Positions 1 through 40,835 of a DNA stretch of 64,000 bases are shown here, in pieces; within the stretch, counting starts at the first letter, position 1; each line of letters starts with the position of its first letter. Under the pieces are notes generated by a model. It worked only from the letters and a program-made list of their open reading frames with translations. It was not told where the DNA came from and did not search any database. The translations under genes and the position numbers were made by a program. The stretch covers positions 40,718 to 104,717 of the forward strand of contig NZ_JANCOC010000009.1 in assembly GCF_024294905.1 (NCBI RefSeq). The letters are read 5' to 3'. The DNA comes from Rothia gullae. GTDB lineage: Bacteria; Actinomycetota; Actinomycetes; Actinomycetales; Micrococcaceae.

Positions 1-262
1 ATGCGGGGCGTATACAGTTCGCGAGAAAGCGCGAGTACTTGTGCTGAGTAAGAGTAAAAGAAGAGTGAAAACAGGCTACCAGGCGGTAACCGAAGCTGAG
101 CAATATGCCGAGTGAGTTGGTGAATGAAAGAACCCAGGCGGGGCAGAACGCCCCATTATTCGAGAGAGATGTTGAGTGAAAGCCTGTATGCAAACCCAGA
201 GAAATGGCACCCTACCCCATGAGGAGGCGAGGCAGGGTGCCAACCCAAAGGAGGCTGTCGCC
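1..262. other. Left edge, no gene recognised
   Basis: No convincing coding frame is seen in this stretch. Its only clear structure is the hairpin at 206-241 that follows the small minus-strand gene. Confidence 0.5.
206..241 (-). terminator. Terminator-like hairpin after the 54-residue gene
   Basis: Arms GGCACCCT (206-213) and AGGGTGCC (234-241) form a perfect 8-bp stem with a 20-nt loop. On the minus strand the stem is followed by a moderately T-rich stretch. It lies about 20 bp beyond the stop of the small gene at 263-427. Confidence 0.5.
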
Positions 263-427
263 TTACTTACCGAACTTCTCAGTCAGCTTGGAGACGTTGT
301 CGGTCACGACCTCTTCAACCTTGGCAACGTGCTCGTCGGTGACGACCTCCTTGCCAGCCTTCTCGTTGATGACTTCCTGAGCCTTGTTGAGGCCCTGCTC
401 AACGGTGCCCTTGATATCGAAGCCCAC
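263..427 (-). CDS. 54-residue antitoxin-like small protein
   Basis: A short reading frame on the minus strand starts at GTG 427, six bases after a perfect AGGAGG, and ends with TAA at 263-265. The 54-residue product is acidic and lysine-rich (MGFDIKGTVEQGLNKAQEVI near the N-terminus, KLTEKFGK at the end) and looks wholly helical. The pattern of spaced Lys/Glu/Asp and a conserved-looking INEKAGKE stretch resembles the small actinobacterial proteins grouped as MT0933/Rv0909-like antitoxins; that match is by eye and not certain. No toxin gene lies next to it, so a toxin-antitoxin role is not supported by context. It could equally be a CsbD-like stress protein. The strong ribosome-binding site and following hairpin argue that it is truly expressed. 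Confidence 0.72.
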   Translation of the reverse strand: MGFDIKGTVEQGLNKAQEVINEKAGKEVVTDEHVAKVEEVVTDNVSKLTEKFGK

Positions 428-862
428 GGGGGCCTCCTTTCTGCGCTTTCGCGCTCTAAACCCTCACCTTGGGTGAGGTACCTGCCCGGGGCGGGCAGAA
501 AACTGGAGTGTGATGCATTGGCGGACCAAACCTGCAAGCTGGGCTTGTATATGACGGTCGAACCCGGTGTAGATGCTATCCATATGCCGGACTATGTGCG
601 TCGAAACTTTACAGCTCACGGATTGCGTCCGTCGATAAGTGTATATACCTGCGGGGGGAAGAAAAACCACTCTCGGAAAACGTGGCGCCACTTTTGACCA
701 ATGACCAAAAAATTATGGCTTATCAGTGTATTATTACGGGGGATAAGCGGAGGAAATTTGCAGAAACTCGCAGGAAACTTCCAGCTATGAATATTGTTCA
801 AACCCCCGAAAAAACGCCCCTATGACACCCCACCGACTAATGACAGACCTCAGTGCCCAACC
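428..862. other. Intergenic region, small gene to galK
   Basis: This 435-bp gap must carry the promoter of the 54-residue gene (reading left) and the 3' end of the galK transcript. No conserved promoter, RNA or further gene was recognised, and no strong terminator is visible after galK. Confidence 0.4.
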
Positions 863-2260
863 CTACAACACCGGAATATCCGTAGGAGCAGCGCCCACAG
901 CCCAATCATGAGACGCTGCAAAACCAGCAACCATCGGCAAAAAACGAGGCGCCGCATAGCTGCGCACAGCATACGCAGTCGCCACCGCATCCGCGGCAGC
1001 CTCCAGCTGAGAGGTCGGAATCAACGCCATCACCGCGCCACCAAAACCGCCACCCACAATACGGGCACCCAGTGCGCCCCGATCCAGGCACACCTGCACC
1101 GCAGCATCAATCTCAGGGCGAGAAACACGCAACTCATCACGCATCGACACAAACGACTCCGTGAAAATACGACCCGCCTCCTCAAACGCCGCGCAACCCA
1201 GCTCATCAGCATGCTGCAGCAAATAGCTCGCACGACCCACCAGAGTCATATCGTGGAACGCATGACGCACCCAACCACGCGGGAATGAACACGGACGACC
1301 CGCATCCTCCAGGGCATCCAAGGCACGATTCACCGAAGAATCCACCAAATCAGCACGCCACGCCTTCGCCGCACGCGCATCCATACCCGCACACGACAAA
1401 TCCTCCGGCAAAGCATCACGCAAAAAACGCAGACCCAAAGCATCAGCGCACGCCTCAGATGCCGCACGACGAGCCGCAAAACCGCCATCCGTTAGCTCAT
1501 GCGGAGTGTTCGTATCAATCACCAAAAAACTCAGGCCATGCTGGGCAATATCCACCGCAACCGGCTCAATCGAAAAATCACGGAAATCAACCACCAGAGC
1601 CTGCTCCGGATGCGAACGCAACGACGCCGTCTGATCCAGGCCACCCGTATGCGCGCCAGCCACCTTATTCTCAGCTGTAATACACACCTGAGCCAGACGC
1701 GCACGCAACGCATCACCATCAGCCGGGGTAGCATCCGCCTCCGGGCACTCCTCACGCACCGGACACGAGAGCTCCAACAGTGCCAACCCCGTCGAACACT
1801 CCAAAGCCGCCGAAGACGACAAACCGCCACCCACCGGAACACGAGAATTAATCAGCAGATCAGCACCAAACTCATCGGGCAGCATGATATCCCTGCCACC
1901 CTCCTGATTCATCGCCCACGCAACACCCGCCACATACGTGAACCAGCCCTTGAGATGCCCCGGCTGAATATCGCGAATCACAACCGTGCGCTCGTCCCCC
2001 GGCATCTGCAACGACGAAGCACGCAATACACCATCACGACGCAACGCACCCGCAATATACGTGCGATACGGCAACGGCATCGGCAGACACGAGCCACCCA
2101 AAAAATCAATGTACTCGCCCAAAAGATTCAGACGCCCAGGCGCAGACCACACACCATCAGGCTCATAACCATACGCAGTAATAAACTCCTCACGCACACG
2201 CGCAATCTCCGCGCTATGGTCCGGAAGAGCCGCCCACTGGGCGGTAGCGGTCATCGACAT
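863..2260 (-). CDS. galK: Galactokinase
   Basis: GHMP-family kinase of 465 residues that phosphorylates galactose to galactose-1-phosphate in the Leloir pathway (cytoplasm). The galactokinase N-terminal signature is at residues 42-53 (GRLNLLGEYIDF), the ATP-binding glycine/serine loop follows as VPVGGGLSSSAALE, the catalytic-Asp region reads GGLDQTASL, and the C-terminal GHMP motif is GARIVGGGFGGAVMAL. The start ATG at 2260 has an AGAGGTG site just upstream. The signature is unusual: the His that normally follows the Glu (GEH.D) is Tyr50 here, and the last Tyr is Phe. It is slightly longer than typical bacterial GalK (about 380-400). No galT or galE lies beside it; the only near neighbour is a TetR regulator upstream on the same strand. 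Family assignment is firm; exact sugar specificity is less so. Confidence 0.9.
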   Translation of the reverse strand: MSMTATAQWAALPDHSAEIARVREEFITAYGYEPDGVWSAPGRLNLLGEYIDFLGGSCLPMPLPYRTYIAGALRRDGVLRASSLQMPGDERTVVIRDIQPGHLKGWFTYVAGVAWAMNQEGGRDIMLPDEFGADLLINSRVPVGGGLSSSAALECSTGLALLELSCPVREECPEADATPADGDALRARLAQVCITAENKVAGAHTGGLDQTASLRSHPEQALVVDFRDFSIEPVAVDIAQHGLSFLVIDTNTPHELTDGGFAARRAASEACADALGLRFLRDALPEDLSCAGMDARAAKAWRADLVDSSVNRALDALEDAGRPCSFPRGWVRHAFHDMTLVGRASYLLQHADELGCAAFEEAGRIFTESFVSMRDELRVSRPEIDAAVQVCLDRGALGARIVGGGFGGAVMALIPTSQLEAAADAVATAYAVRSYAAPRFLPMVAGFAASHDWAVGAAPTDIPVL

Positions 2261-2411
2261 GGAACACCTCTGATAAAGCCCAACAGGGCACTAAGATATA
2301 AACAACACCCCACCCGCACCAGATACCCAACAGGCAACAGCGCAAGTACGTGTCACATCTAGACTAAAGCAGACAACCGGCGAACATCGACTCAATCGCC
2401 AAACTGCACCA

Positions 2412-2462
2412 GTACCAGGGCGCAGCAAGTACCAGGGTGCGGCAGGTACCAGGTGCGGCAGG
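2412..2462. repeat. Three tandem 17-bp repeats upstream of galK
   Basis: GTACCAGGG units start at 2412, 2429 and 2446, exactly 17 bp apart. Copies read GTACCAGGGCGCAGCAA, GTACCAGGGTGCGGCAG and GTACCAGGTGCGGCAGG. They lie about 150-200 bp upstream of the galK start and just downstream of the tetR-like gene, so they may be regulator sites or a simple tandem duplication. Confidence 0.8.
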
Positions 2463-2489
2463 GGAGAACTATACTCAACACACGGAAAA

Positions 2490-2524
2490 GCCCCGCACCC
2501 CCACAAGGGGGGGGGGCACGGGGC
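2490..2524 (-). terminator. Terminator after the TetR gene
   Basis: A GC-rich hairpin pairs GCCCCG with CGGGGC and an inner CCCCC with GGGGG. On the minus strand it is followed by TTTTCC, the usual form of an intrinsic terminator. It sits 40 bp past the stop of the TetR gene at 2564. Confidence 0.75.
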
Positions 2525-2563
2525 ACCATACACAACTAATAAACCAAAAGAGGAACAGGCGAC

Positions 2564-3166
2564 TTACGCATCCTGCGTATAAGGCTCCTGCACCACCATC
2601 ATCGAATCAATCGCAGAAAGCAGGTCCTGACGGTAACGGTTAAACGCATTCTCAATCAGAGGAACATCGCCACTCACCACAGCCTCCTGCGGAGAAATCA
2701 GCGGCAGAGTCTGATACTCCTCCACCAGGCTCAATGCAATATGGGTCAACAAACGAGCACGACGCAGCGCCTCCGCATGGCCCAAACCAAGAGCCTGGAA
2801 CTCATGAGCCATAGCCACCACAGGCTTCAACTCACGAGGATGCAGAGCTAAGCTCAAACGCACCACCTCAGGGCACTCACGAATCGGGTACAGCAAAGAG
2901 AACAGAAGATCACCGCGGCGAATCATCGAAGCGCGAATAGCCTCCGGATTCGGCTCAGCCTCCTCAGACATCGACTTCGGGGCACGAGCCAGAATGTAAT
3001 CCGCCAACAGAATGAGAAGCTGCTGCTTATTCTTCACGTGGTAGTACAGAGCGCCGGGAGCCACGTGAAGCTCCTGAGCGAGTCGGCGCATGGAAAGGTC
3101 CGCCAAACCGTAGGTCGCCAAGACCTCGTAGGCGGTATCTAGAATCTTTTCACGGGAAAGTACCAC
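2564..3166 (-). CDS. TetR-family transcriptional regulator
   Basis: 200-residue regulator starting at GTG 3166 behind a GAAAGG site. The N-terminal helix-turn-helix is clear: ILDTAYEVLATYGLADLSMR, then RRLAQELHVAPGALYYHVKN, with the recognition helix containing the typical G.LYYHV. The remaining helical domain resembles the TetR class ligand-binding domain (TetR_C_1). It lies immediately upstream of galK on the same strand but a strong terminator separates them, so it is probably transcribed alone. Its target is unknown; candidates are itself, galK through the 17-bp repeats, or the gene to the right, whose promoter shares the 290-bp divergent gap. Confidence 0.9.
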   Translation of the reverse strand: MVLSREKILDTAYEVLATYGLADLSMRRLAQELHVAPGALYYHVKNKQQLLILLADYILARAPKSMSEEAEPNPEAIRASMIRRGDLLFSLLYPIRECPEVVRLSLALHPRELKPVVAMAHEFQALGLGHAEALRRARLLTHIALSLVEEYQTLPLISPQEAVVSGDVPLIENAFNRYRQDLLSAIDSMMVVQEPYTQDA

Positions 3167-3457
3167 CCTTTCATTTTAGGGTGTTCAAATCTGTAACGTG
3201 AGCAAGATGCACCCCGCGGCAAACAAAAACTCCCCAAATACGCGGTACAAACCCAAAAATGAATGTTGATTCTCACCCACCCGGAGCGAACGGTTCGCGT
3301 TTCACGAGCACTTTTGCCACCAAAAACGCTCCAGCACACACGGAATAGGTAGCCGCCCACGCTCTCGGCATAAAATCACGTCTTAAACCACCCAAAATCG
3401 CCAAGACAGGTAAACCTCGCGGGCGCACGCCCCAAAATCAGGTGTTTAATATTCAGT

Positions 3458-4408
3458 ATGAGCAACGCATTTTCTGAACTAATCGAGCGCGCCACCGCAG
3501 GCGAAGGCCTCAATCGCGAAGAAATCCACACCCTCCTCGTGGACGGTGACGGACAGGACTTCGCCCTCATCGAGGCAGCCTCCGTAGTGCGCCGTAACGA
3601 ATTTCGTAACATGATTGCAATCCACACCGAAGATGAAGCACTCGCCGACGCCCTGGGCACTCGCTCTATCGCCGTGGACTCCTACGAAGTACTGGATATC
3701 TCCCGCGATATCGACTCCGAAGAACTCGCGGCAAGCATTGAACGTATTGCTGAATCCTCCGCAATCGGCGTGACCGTACTACTGCCCGAAAATGCAGTAC
3801 CCATGATGCTGATGCGCGTGCTGTCCATCCTGCGCCTGGCAGCGCCCGCCAAGGTTATTCATCTGCCCGAAGGCTACGAACAGTCCCTGCGCTCGCTGAC
3901 CTCACTCGCAATGCACGTGGTCAGCGCTATCACCATTACCGACGACATTGAGCAATGGCCGATGGTCAACGAGGTGCTCAAAGCACTGCGTCACGGCGGC
4001 ATCGTCATTTCCGGCACCGGTGGACGCGACGCCCTCGCAGGCTACCTGCGTTACCTCTCCGACCTGGGCGTGGACCTCATGGGTCACCGCGATGCACGCG
4101 GCTCCGCCTGCGGCTCGGTTGACGGTGGCGGCTGCGGCTGTGGCTCGGGTGGCTGCGGTAGCCACGAGGAGTCGGCACCTTCCGCCGGTGGTTGCGGTTG
4201 CGGCTCGGGCGGATGCGGTTCCTCCGCTGAAGCTCCGGCTGAGGCTCACGGCCACTCCCACGGTGGTGGTGGTTGCTGCGGCGGCCACGACGAACCGAAG
4301 GAAGAAAAGGGAGGCTGCTGTGGCGGCCACGACGAGCCCGAACCGGTCGTGGAGGAAGCTCCCGCTGGCGGTTGCGGCTGCGGTGCTGGTGGATGCGGCT
4401 CTAAATAA
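3458..4408 (+). CDS. Two-domain protein with a 14-cysteine Gly/His-rich tail
   Basis: 316 residues, function unknown. Residues 1-213 form a soluble domain. Its N-terminal helix pair (GLNREEIHTLL, then FALIEAASVVRRNEF) resembles the leader of BioB-type radical-SAM enzymes, and residues near 175-205 (VISGTGGRDALAGYLRYL) resemble the end of the BioB C-terminal domain, but the Cys-x3-Cys-x2-Cys cluster and most of the barrel are absent. Residues 214-316 are a low-complexity tail with 14 Cys and 6 His: three GGCGCG(S/A)GGCGS blocks, a HGHSH stretch and two GGCCGGHDEP blocks separated by acidic linkers. Such Cys/His density suggests binding of a soft metal (Cu, Zn, Ni) or iron-sulphur assembly. The tail DNA is strongly repetitive (about 4097-4405). 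It is transcribed alone and ends before a very long hairpin. The BioB link is a weak inference. Confidence 0.75.
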   Translation: MSNAFSELIERATAGEGLNREEIHTLLVDGDGQDFALIEAASVVRRNEFRNMIAIHTEDEALADALGTRSIAVDSYEVLDISRDIDSEELAASIERIAESSAIGVTVLLPENAVPMMLMRVLSILRLAAPAKVIHLPEGYEQSLRSLTSLAMHVVSAITITDDIEQWPMVNEVLKALRHGGIVISGTGGRDALAGYLRYLSDLGVDLMGHRDARGSACGSVDGGGCGCGSGGCGSHEESAPSAGGCGCGSGGCGSSAEAPAEAHGHSHGGGGCCGGHDEPKEEKGGCCGGHDEPEPVVEEAPAGGCGCGAGGCGSK

Positions 4409-4444
4409 TCCGCTAGAAGTAGCTACCCCAAGCAATATATTCCA

Positions 4445-4509
4445 AATATAGAGTTTTCCCCTGAATAACCTGCTGAAAAGTGAGGATATTCAGGGGAAAA
4501 CTCTATATT
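4445..4509 (+). terminator. 23-bp perfect hairpin
   Basis: Arms 4445-4467 and 4487-4509 are perfectly complementary over 23 bp with a 19-nt loop. The arm ends are A/T-rich, so the structure could terminate transcription of the Cys-tail gene. It is far longer than a usual intrinsic terminator stem. Confidence 0.8.
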
Positions 4510-4656
4510 CCACATAAAGCATTAGGCTTAGAGGTAAACAACGCCACAATAAACGCTACAGAACCCCCTATCCGAAAAACGGAATGAGCCCCTCCGGTAG
4601 AGTAGAAAGACGTAGCCGACTAACCCTAGCCGCGCGAAAGGAACAACACCGGACCA

Positions 4657-6399
4657 ATGCTTTACCTCTCCGTTATTGTCATCATCCTGATTGCGACCGT
4701 GTTCATGGTCAGCGTCGGTGACCGACTCAACCTCCCCTGGCCGGTCATGATGACCCTGCTCGGCACCGCCGCGCTCTTCATCCCCAACCGACCGGACCTT
4801 ACTATCGACAGCGACATCATCCTGCCGATCTTCCTTCCGCCGCTACTGTGGGCCATCGGCGTTAAATTCTCCTGGGGCACCCTGCGCCGCCGCTGGAAAT
4901 CCGTACTGCTCTACTCGGTCCTTCTCACCACCGTCTCCGCCCTGGCAATTGCCGGCGCAGCCATGTGGTGGGTCCCCGGCATGACCATCGCCGTCGCCCT
5001 TGCCGTCGGCGCAGCCGTATCCCCACCCGACCCCGTCGCCGTGGAAGCAGTCGCTGAGCCCGTCGGTATTCCCCGACGACTCATCGGCACCCTGCAGACC
5101 GAAGGTAGCTTCAACGACGCTATCGCAATCGTTCTCTTCCACGCCGCAATCCACTCCATGACCAGCAGCCACCACATCGAGCCGCTCTCCGTTGCCAAAG
5201 ACTTCGTGCTCGGCTCAATCCTCGCGGTCATTGTTGGTTACATCTTCGGCTGGCTCGGCGGCTACGTTCGCCAGCGCGCCCACGACGTGGTCACCAGCAA
5301 CGCCGTGACCCTCGTGATCCCCTTCGGTGCCTACCTCGCTGCTGAAAGCGTGCACGCCTCCGGCGTTATTGCCGTGGTCATCGGCGCTATCCAGTTCACC
5401 AGCACCAAATACATGGCGGCACTCGAAGCGGAAGAACGCCTCTCCTCCACCTCCTTCTGGCAGATTATTGAGCTGCTCATGACCGGTGTCGCCTTCGGCC
5501 TCATCGGCCTGCAGGCAAGTAGCATCATCACCACCGCCGACCCCTCCCGTACCGCAGGCCTCTTCGCTGACGGTGCCCTGGTCGCACTGGTCGCCATCCT
5601 GGTGCGCCTCATCTGGTTCACTATCGTCTGGCTGGCAGGACGCAAGAACCCCATCCACGAGGGCGCCCCCGAAAACTTCGCCGAAGTTATCGTCATGACC
5701 TGGTCCGGCATGCGAGGCCTCGTGACCCTGATTCTTGCCCTGTCCATCCCCGTGGTCAACGGCACCGAACAGGTCCGCCAGGACGCCATCGTCATGATGC
5801 TCTCCGTACTCTTCTTCACTCTCGTGCTACCCGGCCTGACCCTGCCCATGCTCGTAAAGGTCCTTGGCGTGCGGGCTAACCATGAAGAAGAAACCGCCGT
5901 ACCCGAACTGCTCAAGATCGCGCAGAACGCCGCCCTTGAAGCACTGCAGGCAGAAGCGAAAGCAAGCACCGACCCTGAGACCTATGCCCGCGTGAAGGAA
6001 ATGTGCTCCGCCATTACCCGCCGCGACGAAATCAGTGAGGCGTTACCCGAAGAATACAAACAGTACATGGAGAAACTTAAGGACAAGAGGAACGACTTCG
6101 TGCGCCTGCGCGATGCCGCCCTCGTCGCCGCGCAGAACGAGGTCATTGCCGCACAGGACCGCTACGACTCCCACGACGTGACCCGCGTGGTGCGTAAGCT
6201 GGACATCCTGGCGCAGGCTGAAAGCATCCGCGCCTCCGGCATGTTCATTCTGCCCGCCATGACCGCCGGCGCGGTCGCCATGGAACGCTACAACCTCTGG
6301 AAGAAGCACCAGGGCACCCTGAGCACCAGCGCAATCCCCGTGGTCGAGAACGCGCCCGCCTCGCCCCTGGTCACCAACGAGGTAACCCCCACATCCTAG
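4657..6399 (+). CDS. CPA1-family Na+/H+ antiporter
   Basis: 580-residue membrane protein of the NhaP/YjcE group exchanging cytoplasmic Na+ (or K+) for external protons. About twelve hydrophobic segments span residues 1-400. Family motifs are present: the ion-binding region SPPDPVAVEA (Asp125) and EGSFNDAIAIV (Asn153-Asp154), plus WSGMRGLVTLILAL near residue 350. Residues about 410-580 are a long hydrophilic helical tail, common in this family and probably regulatory. The start ATG at 4657 follows GAAAGGAAC. It stands alone, preceded by the long hairpin at 4445-4509, so it is likely monocistronic. Cation specificity cannot be read from sequence. Confidence 0.9.
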   Translation: MLYLSVIVIILIATVFMVSVGDRLNLPWPVMMTLLGTAALFIPNRPDLTIDSDIILPIFLPPLLWAIGVKFSWGTLRRRWKSVLLYSVLLTTVSALAIAGAAMWWVPGMTIAVALAVGAAVSPPDPVAVEAVAEPVGIPRRLIGTLQTEGSFNDAIAIVLFHAAIHSMTSSHHIEPLSVAKDFVLGSILAVIVGYIFGWLGGYVRQRAHDVVTSNAVTLVIPFGAYLAAESVHASGVIAVVIGAIQFTSTKYMAALEAEERLSSTSFWQIIELLMTGVAFGLIGLQASSIITTADPSRTAGLFADGALVALVAILVRLIWFTIVWLAGRKNPIHEGAPENFAEVIVMTWSGMRGLVTLILALSIPVVNGTEQVRQDAIVMMLSVLFFTLVLPGLTLPMLVKVLGVRANHEEETAVPELLKIAQNAALEALQAEAKASTDPETYARVKEMCSAITRRDEISEALPEEYKQYMEKLKDKRNDFVRLRDAALVAAQNEVIAAQDRYDSHDVTRVVRKLDILAQAESIRASGMFILPAMTAGAVAMERYNLWKKHQGTLSTSAIPVVENAPASPLVTNEVTPTS

Positions 6400-6583
6400 C
6401 GGGTACCTGCACCGCGTGCATGAACGTTACATTTCTGCCCCTGCCTACGCCACCGAGATAAGCCCGTTGGTCTTTAACTCACACGCGATAGGCAGAGGCA
6501 GAAGCAGATTAAGTCTCAACTATCACCTAAAATGAGAATCAAACGTTAGCTCTCTCAAACTCACGAACACTTTGAAAGTAGAC

Positions 6584-7087
6584 ATGGATTTCAAGACTCT
6601 CTCGCCTGCGTACCTGACCTCCCTCTGCGTAATTTTTTGCGGCGCGCTCTTGATAGGAACCTCCAGCCCCTGGCTCCTGTGGCTCGGCTGGATCCTTCTG
6701 GTTCTTGCGTTGGGCCTGAACGTCCTTGCCTTTGTGCTGTCCGTGGGTAAGGCGAAGGGCGATCCGACCCCCGCACTGGTGACCAACCTGGACAGTTTCG
6801 AATCCTCCGTTGAGAACCGCATCCGCGAGCGCTCGGAGCACCGCCGTGAAGAGCGTGAAGCTGCTAAGCATGGGGCAATTGAGTACGAAGTTGCGGCGCA
6901 GGCTAACCAGGAAGTAGCTCCCGCTGAGGCGACCGAGCCCGCTGAAGCTGCCGAGGCTGTTGAGGTTCGTGAGGAAGAGCCCACCGAATCTCAGCCGATT
7001 GTTGATCGTGCCCCCGGCCGTACGAGCGTTCTGCCCTCGCGTCCCCGTTCGGGTCGTGCCCCCAAGCCCCGCTCCAACGCACGCTAG
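6584..7087 (+). CDS. Small membrane protein with acidic Ala/Glu tail
   Basis: 167 residues if started at ATG 6584, which has GAAAG at optimal spacing; an in-frame TTG at 6572 would add four residues but lacks such a site. Residues 1-60 hold two hydrophobic segments (SPAYLTSLCVIFCGALLIG and WLLWLGWILLVLALGLNVLA). The rest is hydrophilic, first basic and coiled-coil-like (RIRERSEHRREEREAAK), then rich in Ala, Glu and Pro, ending in an Arg/Pro-rich stretch. No family recognised. Its N-terminal SPAYL(T/V)S motif and double membrane hairpin recur in the next gene, so the two are tandem paralogues. Confidence 0.7.
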   Translation: MDFKTLSPAYLTSLCVIFCGALLIGTSSPWLLWLGWILLVLALGLNVLAFVLSVGKAKGDPTPALVTNLDSFESSVENRIRERSEHRREEREAAKHGAIEYEVAAQANQEVAPAEATEPAEAAEAVEVREEEPTESQPIVDRAPGRTSVLPSRPRSGRAPKPRSNAR

Positions 7088-7098
7088 GTAGGTCGGTA

Positions 7099-7345
7099 GT
7101 GAATACGAAGTTTTTGCTTTCACCGGCATACCTGGTTTCTGTTGCCCTGATGCTTGCCGGCGCGGTGCTTTCCGGTGGTCGGTTCATGCTGATCGGCTGG
7201 ATTCTGTGCATTGTGGGTGTCTGCTTGAACGCTATGACCCTGGTGGTGCTGACGAATCGTGAGCAGCTGTACACCATAGACGCGAATGCTACCCAAGGAA
7301 GCCGCCGAAGAGCCCGTTGAAGCACCCGTGCCGAAGATTAACTAA
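7099..7345 (+). pseudogene. Frameshifted paralogue of the preceding small membrane protein
   Basis: Starts at GTG 7099, 11 bp after the previous stop. The first 66 residues repeat the layout of its neighbour: LLSPAYLVSVALMLAGAVLS, GWILCIVGVCLNAMTLVVL, then a hydrophilic region. The frame then reads GSRRRAR and stops at 7320. If one G of the GG at 7297-7298 is removed, the frame continues as TQEAAEEPVEAPVPKIN and stops at 7343-7345, an acidic Ala/Glu/Pro tail just like the neighbour's. This points to a one-base insertion, either a true mutation or a sequencing error. As written, the gene gives a 73-residue product with a basic end. Function unknown. Confidence 0.6.
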
Positions 7346-7400
7346 GGTTTAACCTCCTAAGACGTAAAGACCCCCGCAGAGATTATCTGACGTGAATAAA

Positions 7401-7446
7401 AGACCGTAACCGCCCCCGTACAGGGGAGTGGTTACGGTCTTTTGTT
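7401..7446. terminator. Bidirectional terminator
   Basis: Arms AGACCGTAACC (7401-7411) and GGTTACGGTCT (7430-7440) form a perfect 11-bp stem followed by TTTTGTTG on the plus strand and, on the minus strand, by TTTTATT. It separates the converging small membrane-protein pair and the gene at 7530-8033. Confidence 0.88.
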
Positions 7447-7529
7447 GTCCCTGAATGCTCACCTCGGCTAACGCTCGTCGAATACTTTTGTTTTTTGGGA
7501 GGGAGGGGTGAGCGAGCGCAGTGGGGTCT

Positions 7530-8033
7530 TTAGTGCTGAGTACCCAGCTTCTGCGCCGCGAAATCCGCGTACTCCTGCACGTGCGCGCGAGCCTGCTTGG
7601 TCAGCGCCTTATTCTCATCCAGGATGCGCGCCGACTGCGCCGCCATCAGCTCCAGGTACTGGCGGTCGCGGGTCTTCTTCCATGCGGTGCGTGCCGCCTC
7701 CAGCTCCGCGAAATCGTTGAGCGCCTGACGTTGCATCGTGTAGCGGACCCACATGAGCACCAGAATCAGCACCAGCGGAATGAGGCACGCCCAGCTCTGC
7801 CACAGCCCGTACAGTGCCGCCGCAATGGCACCCAAAACGATCAGCACCGGGGAGATTGAAACGATGGGGGAGTCTGGGCGGTTCTTCTGGTTCTTCACGA
7901 GTGATTCACGCGCCATAGCGCGGAAGGTGTCAGAGAAGCTGGACGGGTCGTACGACTGGGTAGAATCGGCCTGCGGGCTCTTCTGTGACTGATCCTTGCT
8001 GGACTGGTTCTTTGGGGGTTGAGCGGGGCACAT
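7530..8033 (-). CDS. Membrane protein of unknown function
   Basis: 167 residues when started at ATG 8033, which has a GTGAGG site six bases upstream; a longer frame to GTG 8084 begins inside the parS-like palindrome and is unlikely. The N-terminal 60 residues are Gln/Ser/Lys-rich and disordered-looking. Two adjacent hydrophobic segments follow (IVSISPVLIVLGAIAAALYG and WACLIPLVLILVLMWVRY). The C-terminal third is a charged, probably coiled-coil helix (LEAARTAWKKTRDRQYLEL). No family recognised. It shares the bidirectional terminator at 7401-7446 with the genes converging from the left. Confidence 0.72.
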   Translation of the reverse strand: MCPAQPPKNQSSKDQSQKSPQADSTQSYDPSSFSDTFRAMARESLVKNQKNRPDSPIVSISPVLIVLGAIAAALYGLWQSWACLIPLVLILVLMWVRYTMQRQALNDFAELEAARTAWKKTRDRQYLELMAAQSARILDENKALTKQARAHVQEYADFAAQKLGTQH

Positions 8034-8076
8034 AGAAACCTCACGGGGATACACGGGGAGTAACGGGAAAGCGGGG

Positions 8077-8092
8077 TGTTTCACGTGAAACG
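8077..8092. other. parS: parS-like ParB-binding site
   Basis: TGTTTCACGTGAAACG matches the bacterial consensus TGTTTCACGTGAAACA at 15 of 16 positions and contains the full 14-bp palindrome GTTTCACGTGAAAC (8078-8091). It lies upstream of the gene at 7530-8033, not inside a gene. ParB (Spo0J) binding is expected from known consensus; ParB itself is not in the window. Confidence 0.85.
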
Positions 8093-8192
8093 GGGGAGTA
8101 GGCGGCGAGTACGCGCGAGAGAAGCGGCGAGCATGAGGAAGCGGCTGGCGGCTCAGCGCTCGCCGCGCCTAAATGCCAGCCGGGGGGAGCTT

Positions 8193-8966
8193 TTACAGGG
8201 AAGCCTCAATAAACTCGTACGCCTTATCCACACAATCGGTGGTGACAGCCTTAACCTCATCGGGGGAGTAGCTGAACGACGCCGAACGGTCAGCGTAGCG
8301 GTGCATATTGATATCGTTCCACGAATCACCAATCGTATGCACCTCATAGGAGCTACCCGAATGCTCAGCCTGCAGGTACTCCACCAGATGCTGCAGGCCG
8401 GTGCCCTTCGTGCAGGCGGGCGGCACAATATCCAAGAAATCCTGATTCTTGTGGCAGTCCACCGAATCACCAAAACGCTCCAGAATCCAGGTGTGCGCCG
8501 CCTCGCGGACCTGGGCATCCGGAATCCACAGGGGTACACCCACGTACTCGTGGTTCTGCAGGTCATCAGCCGGTAGGGGAGTGAACTCCGGCAGAATATT
8601 TGTCGATGAACCCACCCGGTCGCAGAGGCTGTAATCGTTATCCAGGGTCGTAGCGAATAGTGCCACGCCGTCCACGGTGCTGAAATGCTCGTAGCACGCC
8701 TGCACAACACTCACCGGAAGAGGCTGATGGTAAATCACCCGGTACTCCCAGTTGGTAATCACTGCACCCGTGTACAGCACGTGGTAGTCAAAGCGGATGG
8801 CGGTTGGGCTCAACGCCAGCTGAGTGGCAAAAATGCTCTTGCCCGTGCACGAGACTGCCAGGTTACCCTCCGCCTGCCAGCGGGCAATCGCCTGCTCATT
8901 GGCAGGCTCTACGGCACGGTTAAATAGGATTGTGCCGTCCAGGTCGAAAGCCATCAACTTGGTCAT
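8193..8966 (-). CDS. HAD-superfamily (Cof-type) phosphatase
   Basis: 257 residues starting at ATG 8966 behind AAGGAG. The nucleophile motif is FDLDGTILF near the N-terminus (the first Asp is the phosphorylated residue), SCTGKS is motif II, a Lys sits in the middle (CTKGTGLQHL) and motif IV is TIGDSWNDINM. The large inserted cap between motifs II and III is typical of Cof/YidA sugar-phosphate phosphatases, here with an unusual Trp in GDSWND. It follows the PTS operon on the same strand but a hairpin at 9028-9069 lies between them. A role in dephosphorylating a sugar phosphate imported by that PTS is an inference. Confidence 0.85.
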   Translation of the reverse strand: MTKLMAFDLDGTILFNRAVEPANEQAIARWQAEGNLAVSCTGKSIFATQLALSPTAIRFDYHVLYTGAVITNWEYRVIYHQPLPVSVVQACYEHFSTVDGVALFATTLDNDYSLCDRVGSSTNILPEFTPLPADDLQNHEYVGVPLWIPDAQVREAAHTWILERFGDSVDCHKNQDFLDIVPPACTKGTGLQHLVEYLQAEHSGSSYEVHTIGDSWNDINMHRYADRSASFSYSPDEVKAVTTDCVDKAYEFIEASL

Positions 8967-9027
8967 AGAAACTCCTTCGCGGGAGGGCTGCATTGCCGCG
9001 AATTGTGCGCCGCAACCGATAGAAAAC

Positions 9028-40684: not shown

Positions 40685-40835
40685 TGCAGGGGGGAGGGCG
40701 CCGCAAACTCTGTGCAGAAAACCCTATCTGACAAAGATCGATATATTTTTACACTAAATGCAATGTAGGAATGTATTCTAAATCCCTACAAATATCAAGT
40801 AGAGGGGTAAGGAGACCAAAGGTTTTAGTTGATAT

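Follow-up and report, generated by a model that had tools for sequence, protein, structure and literature searches.

A stretch of 64,000 nucleotides from the contig NZ_JANCOC010000009.1 of Rothia gullae (positions 40,718 to 104,717, referred to here as the window) includes a gene, named stump, that encompasses coordinates 3458..4408 of the + strand, runs from ATG to TAA, and codes for a 316-amino acid protein. Sequence, predicted fold, and synteny support an origin of stump as a tandem duplicate of bioB from which the radical S-adenosylmethionine (SAM) part of the barrel, every cluster cysteine, and the RRRG motif at the end have been lost. Low ratios of nonsynonymous to synonymous substitution rates (dN/dS), together with the presence of stump in 13 genomes without bioB, support the conclusion that purifying selection maintains the gene and that its product can do without BioB. 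We propose, giving the idea about an even chance of being correct, that its product is non-catalytic, acts independently of BioB, and consists of a docking body and a tail that carries metal or an Fe-S cluster. What is new here is that a radical-SAM enzyme has, through deletion of its barrel, given rise to a non-catalytic paralogue; no such protein was found described in the open-licence literature searched, a scope that did not extend to subscription papers and preprints.

The Stump body, residues 1-213 (3458..4096, +), retains the N-terminal cap and the BATS end of BioB, the radical-SAM barrel part being gone. A preliminary description of this DNA had likened it to the ends of BioB-type enzymes and had noted the loss of the SAM-cluster cysteines. 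Both observations hold: sequence and fold support a shortened BioB, related to BioB by common descent and BioB-like outside the deleted part, with a predicted fold that is BioB/HydE-like and not one unrelated to the radical-SAM types, and residues 1-213 include no cysteine and therefore no CxxxCxxC motif. In the structure prediction the body folds confidently and the predicted local distance difference test score (pLDDT) is <50 for residues 216-279 and 281-316. Family models recognize the window protein poorly: TIGR00433 gave 14.6 bits, which does not reach the curated score of 225, and the BATS model PF06968 (cut-off 22.2) gave a weak match of 13.8 bits to residues 115-181 (3800..4000, +), the stumps of loci L022, L034, and L028 scoring 37, 27.3, and 17.5, respectively. 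BATS was the sole entry in a Pfam scan of the window protein with E values up to 10, in which neither PF01521 nor an FKBP-type isomerase was listed. When the less divergent L022 stump served as query, 37 proteins were found, first 31 stump-sized ones without a radical-SAM domain and then six with one; the UniRef name of one of these relatives, from Rothia aerolata, already derives from the biotin and thiamin synthesis-associated domain. The terminal motif R[RKLHQ]RG[AVT]GT is present in 45 of 45 BioBs, a variant (RRRGAGS) being found in the BioB of L110; the window protein has no such motif and ends in GGCGCGAGGCGSK. As the radical-SAM part, CxxxCxxC, and the terminal RRRG motif are all missing, Stump cannot cleave SAM or insert sulphur, and no biotin synthase activity is expected.

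The search with the window protein produced 129 matches, of which the 120 listed are covered by the analyses; the genus was represented by 35 Rothia genomes, and stump was distinguished from bioB by the ORFs (open reading frames). Matches were found in 30 of the 35 genomes, 25 of them with stump and five through a true BioB only, and the bioB family search was above the cut-off in 18. The two genes are present together in 12 genomes, stump only in 13, bioB only in six, and neither in four, two of which are just 65% and 72% complete. When 295 genomes belonging to the family were searched, the matches listed included 18 near-full-length ones starting at model positions 1-3, all from Rothia; the others listed begin no earlier than position 68 or consist of N-terminal pieces within long Rothia ORFs, the pattern expected of BioB. 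By its sequence stump is a Rothia gene, its closest named loci being those of Rothia sp. RSM386 and R. mucilaginosa 141_RMUC. The nearest genome in the comparison set was G001, with 25% of the sampled words in common with the window.

Because the body dN/dS is low and an ortholog is present in 25 of the 35 genomes, stump is a real gene. The body dN/dS was 0.039-0.229 in 15 of 18 ortholog pairs, that is, in all 15 that could be computed, the other three being saturated; selection persists in the clade of the window, and constraint on the body equals or exceeds that on the tail. On these values a pseudogene was rejected. A functionless remnant of bioB in the course of decay is thus hardly credible, the more so as the reading frame has no internal stop in any of the 25 stump genomes, although decay of bioB itself is seen in some Rothia (a split gene in G019, remnants in G029 and G031) and a few metagenomic relatives of Stump have altered tail ends.

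Loss of bioB could be placed on at least seven lines (the clade of the window, G028, G003, G033, G009, G029, and G031), with stump kept in each. This count is a by-eye reading of the stump tree and of bioB presence rather than a computed reconstruction, and it becomes six without G033, whose genome is 87% complete. The tree comprised 26 stumps and 31 BioBs, L051 having been dropped and L048, L054, G008, G012, and the split G019 not being included; the tool gave a warning that long branches meet in it. In the clade of the window (G001, G002, G007, G014, G015, G016, and G034) bioB, bioA, and bioD are below the cut-offs in all seven genomes. Over the genus bioD was above the cut-off in five of the 35 genomes and weaker in four, bioA was above it in seven, and BioY is present in all 35. 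The losses in G029 (L080) and G031 (L079) are recent: both loci retain the operator and a bioB-like 5′ remnant beside an intact stump. In G019 (L018) bioB is split and the neighbouring stump is intact.

A TetR gene and then a galactokinase gene are found on one side of stump in the window and in the 25 stump genomes, the TetR gene being divergent and adjoining stump in 25 of the 26 loci; G035 differs in having bioB between the TetR gene and stump. On the other side bioB follows stump directly in 10 genomes, and in G008 it is located on another contig. A Na+/H+ exchanger gene comes after bioB in G017-G021; in the window the exchanger gene (4657..6399, +; PF00999, E 8.5e-41) directly follows stump, bioB being missing between them.

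The best PDB matches of the regulator (2564..3166, −; PF00440) were 5yek, 5xs9, and 5yej, with E about 5e-13; we take these to be BioQ, the label in the search being TetR family only. In M. smegmatis, BioQ has been reported to regulate biotin genes and to be of the TetR type (PMC9302846), and TGAAC-N3-GTTCA was published as its predicted site (PMC3398298). This sequence is present ahead of bioB in the 10 adjacent stump-bioB pairs and in G035, and a slightly longer form of it precedes bioY (L091-L103), exact in seven of 13 genomes, with one or two mismatches in five, and with none found in G007. As predicted BioQ sites precede both bioB and bioY, the divergent TetR is probably BioQ. A TetR gene was also near bioB in five of six stump-less genomes checked, the stretch from the sixth being short. 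Four of the five genomes with a mismatched bioY site, as well as G007, fall in the clade of the window plus G034; this distribution suggests an erosion of biotin control in genomes that have lost the pathway. When the 320 nucleotides upstream of stump were inspected, a BioQ-type site with up to two mismatches was found in none of the 26 loci; five have one with three mismatches, and the 64-kb window alone includes nine sites of that kind. Direct control of stump by a BioQ-type site was rejected on these grounds. Since no such site with up to two mismatches lies upstream, stump may be expressed independently, of biotin too.

The architecture of the locus gives weight to the main rival explanation, namely that Stump assists BioB as an auxiliary subunit with a role like that of the mycobacterial biotin synthase auxiliary protein BsaP, either by pairing with the enzyme or by supplying its sacrificed auxiliary cluster. 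The position of stump immediately 5′ of bioB in 10 genomes, the neighbouring regulator that is probably BioQ, and the report that mycobacterial BioB requires a small cysteine-containing partner (PMC11099021) are in its favor, as is the fact that linkers with three or more cysteines in Rothia BioB track stump (see below). While the ancestral locus fits a helper of BioB, the bioB-less species do not: 13 of the 25 stump genomes have no bioB above the cut-off, selection continues in the clade of the window, and the BioQ-type site stands ahead of bioB and not of stump. In the bioB-less species the protein would have to be a relic or else aid another sulphur-inserting enzyme, e.g. lipoyl synthase. 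We consider this explanation possible but unlikely.

The remaining part of the protein, residues 214-316 (4097..4405, +), is a predicted disordered tail with the 14 cysteines and six histidines of the preliminary description, a count that was confirmed, and with 35 glycines. The three GGCGCGxGGCGS and two GGCCGGHDEP blocks described there are present in the translation, the tail also having CCGGH and HxH repeats. The six frames of the window have 196 stop-to-stop segments that are 103 amino acids or longer, of which stump alone includes a stretch of 103 residues with at least 14 cysteines, and for this reason the richness of the tail in cysteine is not due to chance composition. At the DNA level a tandem-repeat finder detected two short arrays with low scores. 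When the tail was followed across Rothia, the number of cysteines was found to vary and the tail to be kept in kind: the protein from the window and 25 of 25 orthologs end in a CxCx4C block. Outside the clade of the window the tail is short, with about four cysteines (e.g. GGCGGNCACGSGGCGA), and it has grown inside the clade. Of the query and its 120 listed matches, 121 proteins in all, 103 have a tail that could be counted and whose last block is intact, the cysteines numbering 7-19; 30 of these 103, whose bodies are at least 97% identical to that of the window, span the same 7-19 cysteines. Four metagenomic proteins of the 120 (P0068, P0103, P0105, and P0109) have TPSNIFQ(I/K) at the C-terminus in place of the last cysteine block; this is the end of an overlapping frame at 3948-4451 and could reflect a repeat frame shift or an assembly error.

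A tail of this composition could be a metal buffer, storing Zn or Cu as a metallothionein does on a body that is a mere carrier with no specific client. The CCGGH and HxH repeats and the variation in repeat number and cysteine count on near-identical bodies would agree with storage. A bare carrier, however, would need neither a body constrained at least as much as the tail nor its confident fold, and outside the clade of the window the tail has just about four cysteines; storage is in our view quite unlikely.

The term "cysteine-armed" in the preliminary description stands as far as the existence of the tail is concerned, but this arm is probably no new acquisition, as the full-length BioBs of stump-bearing Rothia, and some BioBs of other actinobacteria, have cysteine-rich linkers there. 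Between the BATS end and the RRRG motif, nine of the 16 Rothia BioBs read have a linker with three or more cysteines, nine of 10 in stump-bearing versus none of six in stump-less genomes, counts that leave out the BioBs of G008 and G019. Since the full-length BioBs of stump-bearing Rothia have such linkers at the same place, the tail was probably inherited from the parent BioB of this lineage. Similar linkers were found in five of 19 other Micrococcaceae BioBs and in neither of two Mycobacterium plasmid copies. Micrococcaceae linkers (including L040-L059) range from 1 to 83 residues with 0 to 5 cysteines. Seven Streptomyces BioBs (L003-L009) have cysteine-rich linkers, all carrying GGCGSHEE, and are a biased sample, having been obtained with six peptide patterns one of which was the GGCGSHEE of the Stump tail; among four Streptomycetaceae BioBs picked by BioB similarity (L106 and L108-L110) one has three or more cysteines. 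The common GGCGSHEE may be the result of convergence.

Within the alignment, all 11 stumps from outside the clade of the window retain the arginine of the GRE sequence, which we take to be a ligand of the [2Fe-2S] cluster of BioB in E. coli; all five from inside the clade have Tyr or Phe there. This change and the growth of the tail suggest a shift away from BioB-type cluster chemistry in the clade.

In the history that sequence, fold, and synteny support, bioB was duplicated in tandem and one copy lost the radical-SAM barrel part, while its N-terminal cap, BATS end, and cysteine-rich tail were retained. The folded remnant could serve as a docking platform for a client, and the flexible tail, through its CxCx4C core and the CCGGH and HxH repeats added to it, could bind an Fe-S cluster or soft metal ions and hand them to that client. 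Several points weigh against such a carrier. The recency of some bioB losses makes the retention of stump in those genomes little telling; the tail is strongly variable in length on near-identical bodies, so that much of it may be loosely constrained; the tail alone had no match in a PDB search; and A-type Fe-S carriers (PF01521) are present in 34 of the 35 genomes, leaving no gap to fill.

Replacement of a missing A-type carrier by Stump was rejected on account of this last distribution. Lipoyl synthase of E. coli is said to require NfuA, and the Nfu-type domain PF01106 is present in just two of the 35 Rothia genomes, G017 and G030; Nfu is missing both with and without stump, and a replacement of Nfu was discarded. 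So was nickel delivery to urease in the clade of the window, urease being found in nine of the 35 genomes and in none of the seven of the clade. BioB consumes its own auxiliary cluster as sulphur donor, and BsaP is one helper that has been described in actinobacteria. A more far-reaching idea, which we regard as quite unlikely, is that Stump is a delivery module for a cluster or metal, made from biotin synthase by removal of the catalytic barrel, and that it explains the cysteine-rich linkers of some actinobacterial BioBs: these linkers would feed or rebuild the sacrificed auxiliary cluster in cis, mycobacteria would use BsaP, and the module would have been re-aimed at clients such as lipoyl synthase where bioB was lost. 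A natural protein with the BioB ends and the tail, no barrel, and a persistence that outlives bioB uncouples those parts from catalysis. If it is true that the tail binds a cluster or metal, the cysteine-rich linkers of ordinary BioBs would acquire a testable role.

Upstream of stump the sequence TAATAT (3447..3452, +), 5 nucleotides before the ATG, is a possible −10 box and would fit a leaderless transcript starting at 3458; GGTGTTTAATA is found ahead of the start codon in eight of eight members of the clade of the window. An inverted repeat 3′ of the gene (4447..4507, no strand assigned), visible in the sequence, is a possible terminator. Rfam gave no match in window coordinates 1-9000. In G028 (L034, 2121-2774) a 217-amino acid ORF with no Pfam match and, by eye, the look of a membrane protein overlaps the end of stump.

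Among known proteins BioB (TIGR00433; PF04055 and PF06968) is the closest: it has in common with Stump the cap, the BATS end, the predicted fold, the chromosomal place and, in stump-bearing Rothia, a cysteine-rich C-terminal linker comparable to the Stump tail, but it possesses the radical-SAM part, CxxxCxxC, and the terminal RRRG motif that Stump lacks. The C-terminal tail of SlyD from E. coli K-12 includes GCCGGH and GCGC motifs and forms a Cys/His/Gly-rich end as in Stump; its body, on the other hand, is annotated as an FKBP-type isomerase, a domain that Stump does not have. An inactive form of biotin synthase from Heterodera glycines is a precedent for an inactive BioB; it is a nematode gene, and the start of the abstract of that report mentions neither a deleted barrel nor a cysteine tail (PMC6909392). 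BsaP of mycobacteria is, like Stump, a small non-catalytic cysteine-containing protein whose gene adjoins bioB in part of its range. As compared by description only, BsaP is small, its predicted structure is unlike known ones, and its cysteines are at positions 44, 47, and 64 (PMC11099021). BsaP is not annotated in the regions of the plasmid bioB loci viewed, and a coarse scan of 20 loci for ORFs of 45-160 amino acids with CxxC near bioB returned two ORFs, judged spurious, a result that does not prove BsaP to be missing. In contrast to BsaP, Stump derives from BioB itself and persists without bioB.
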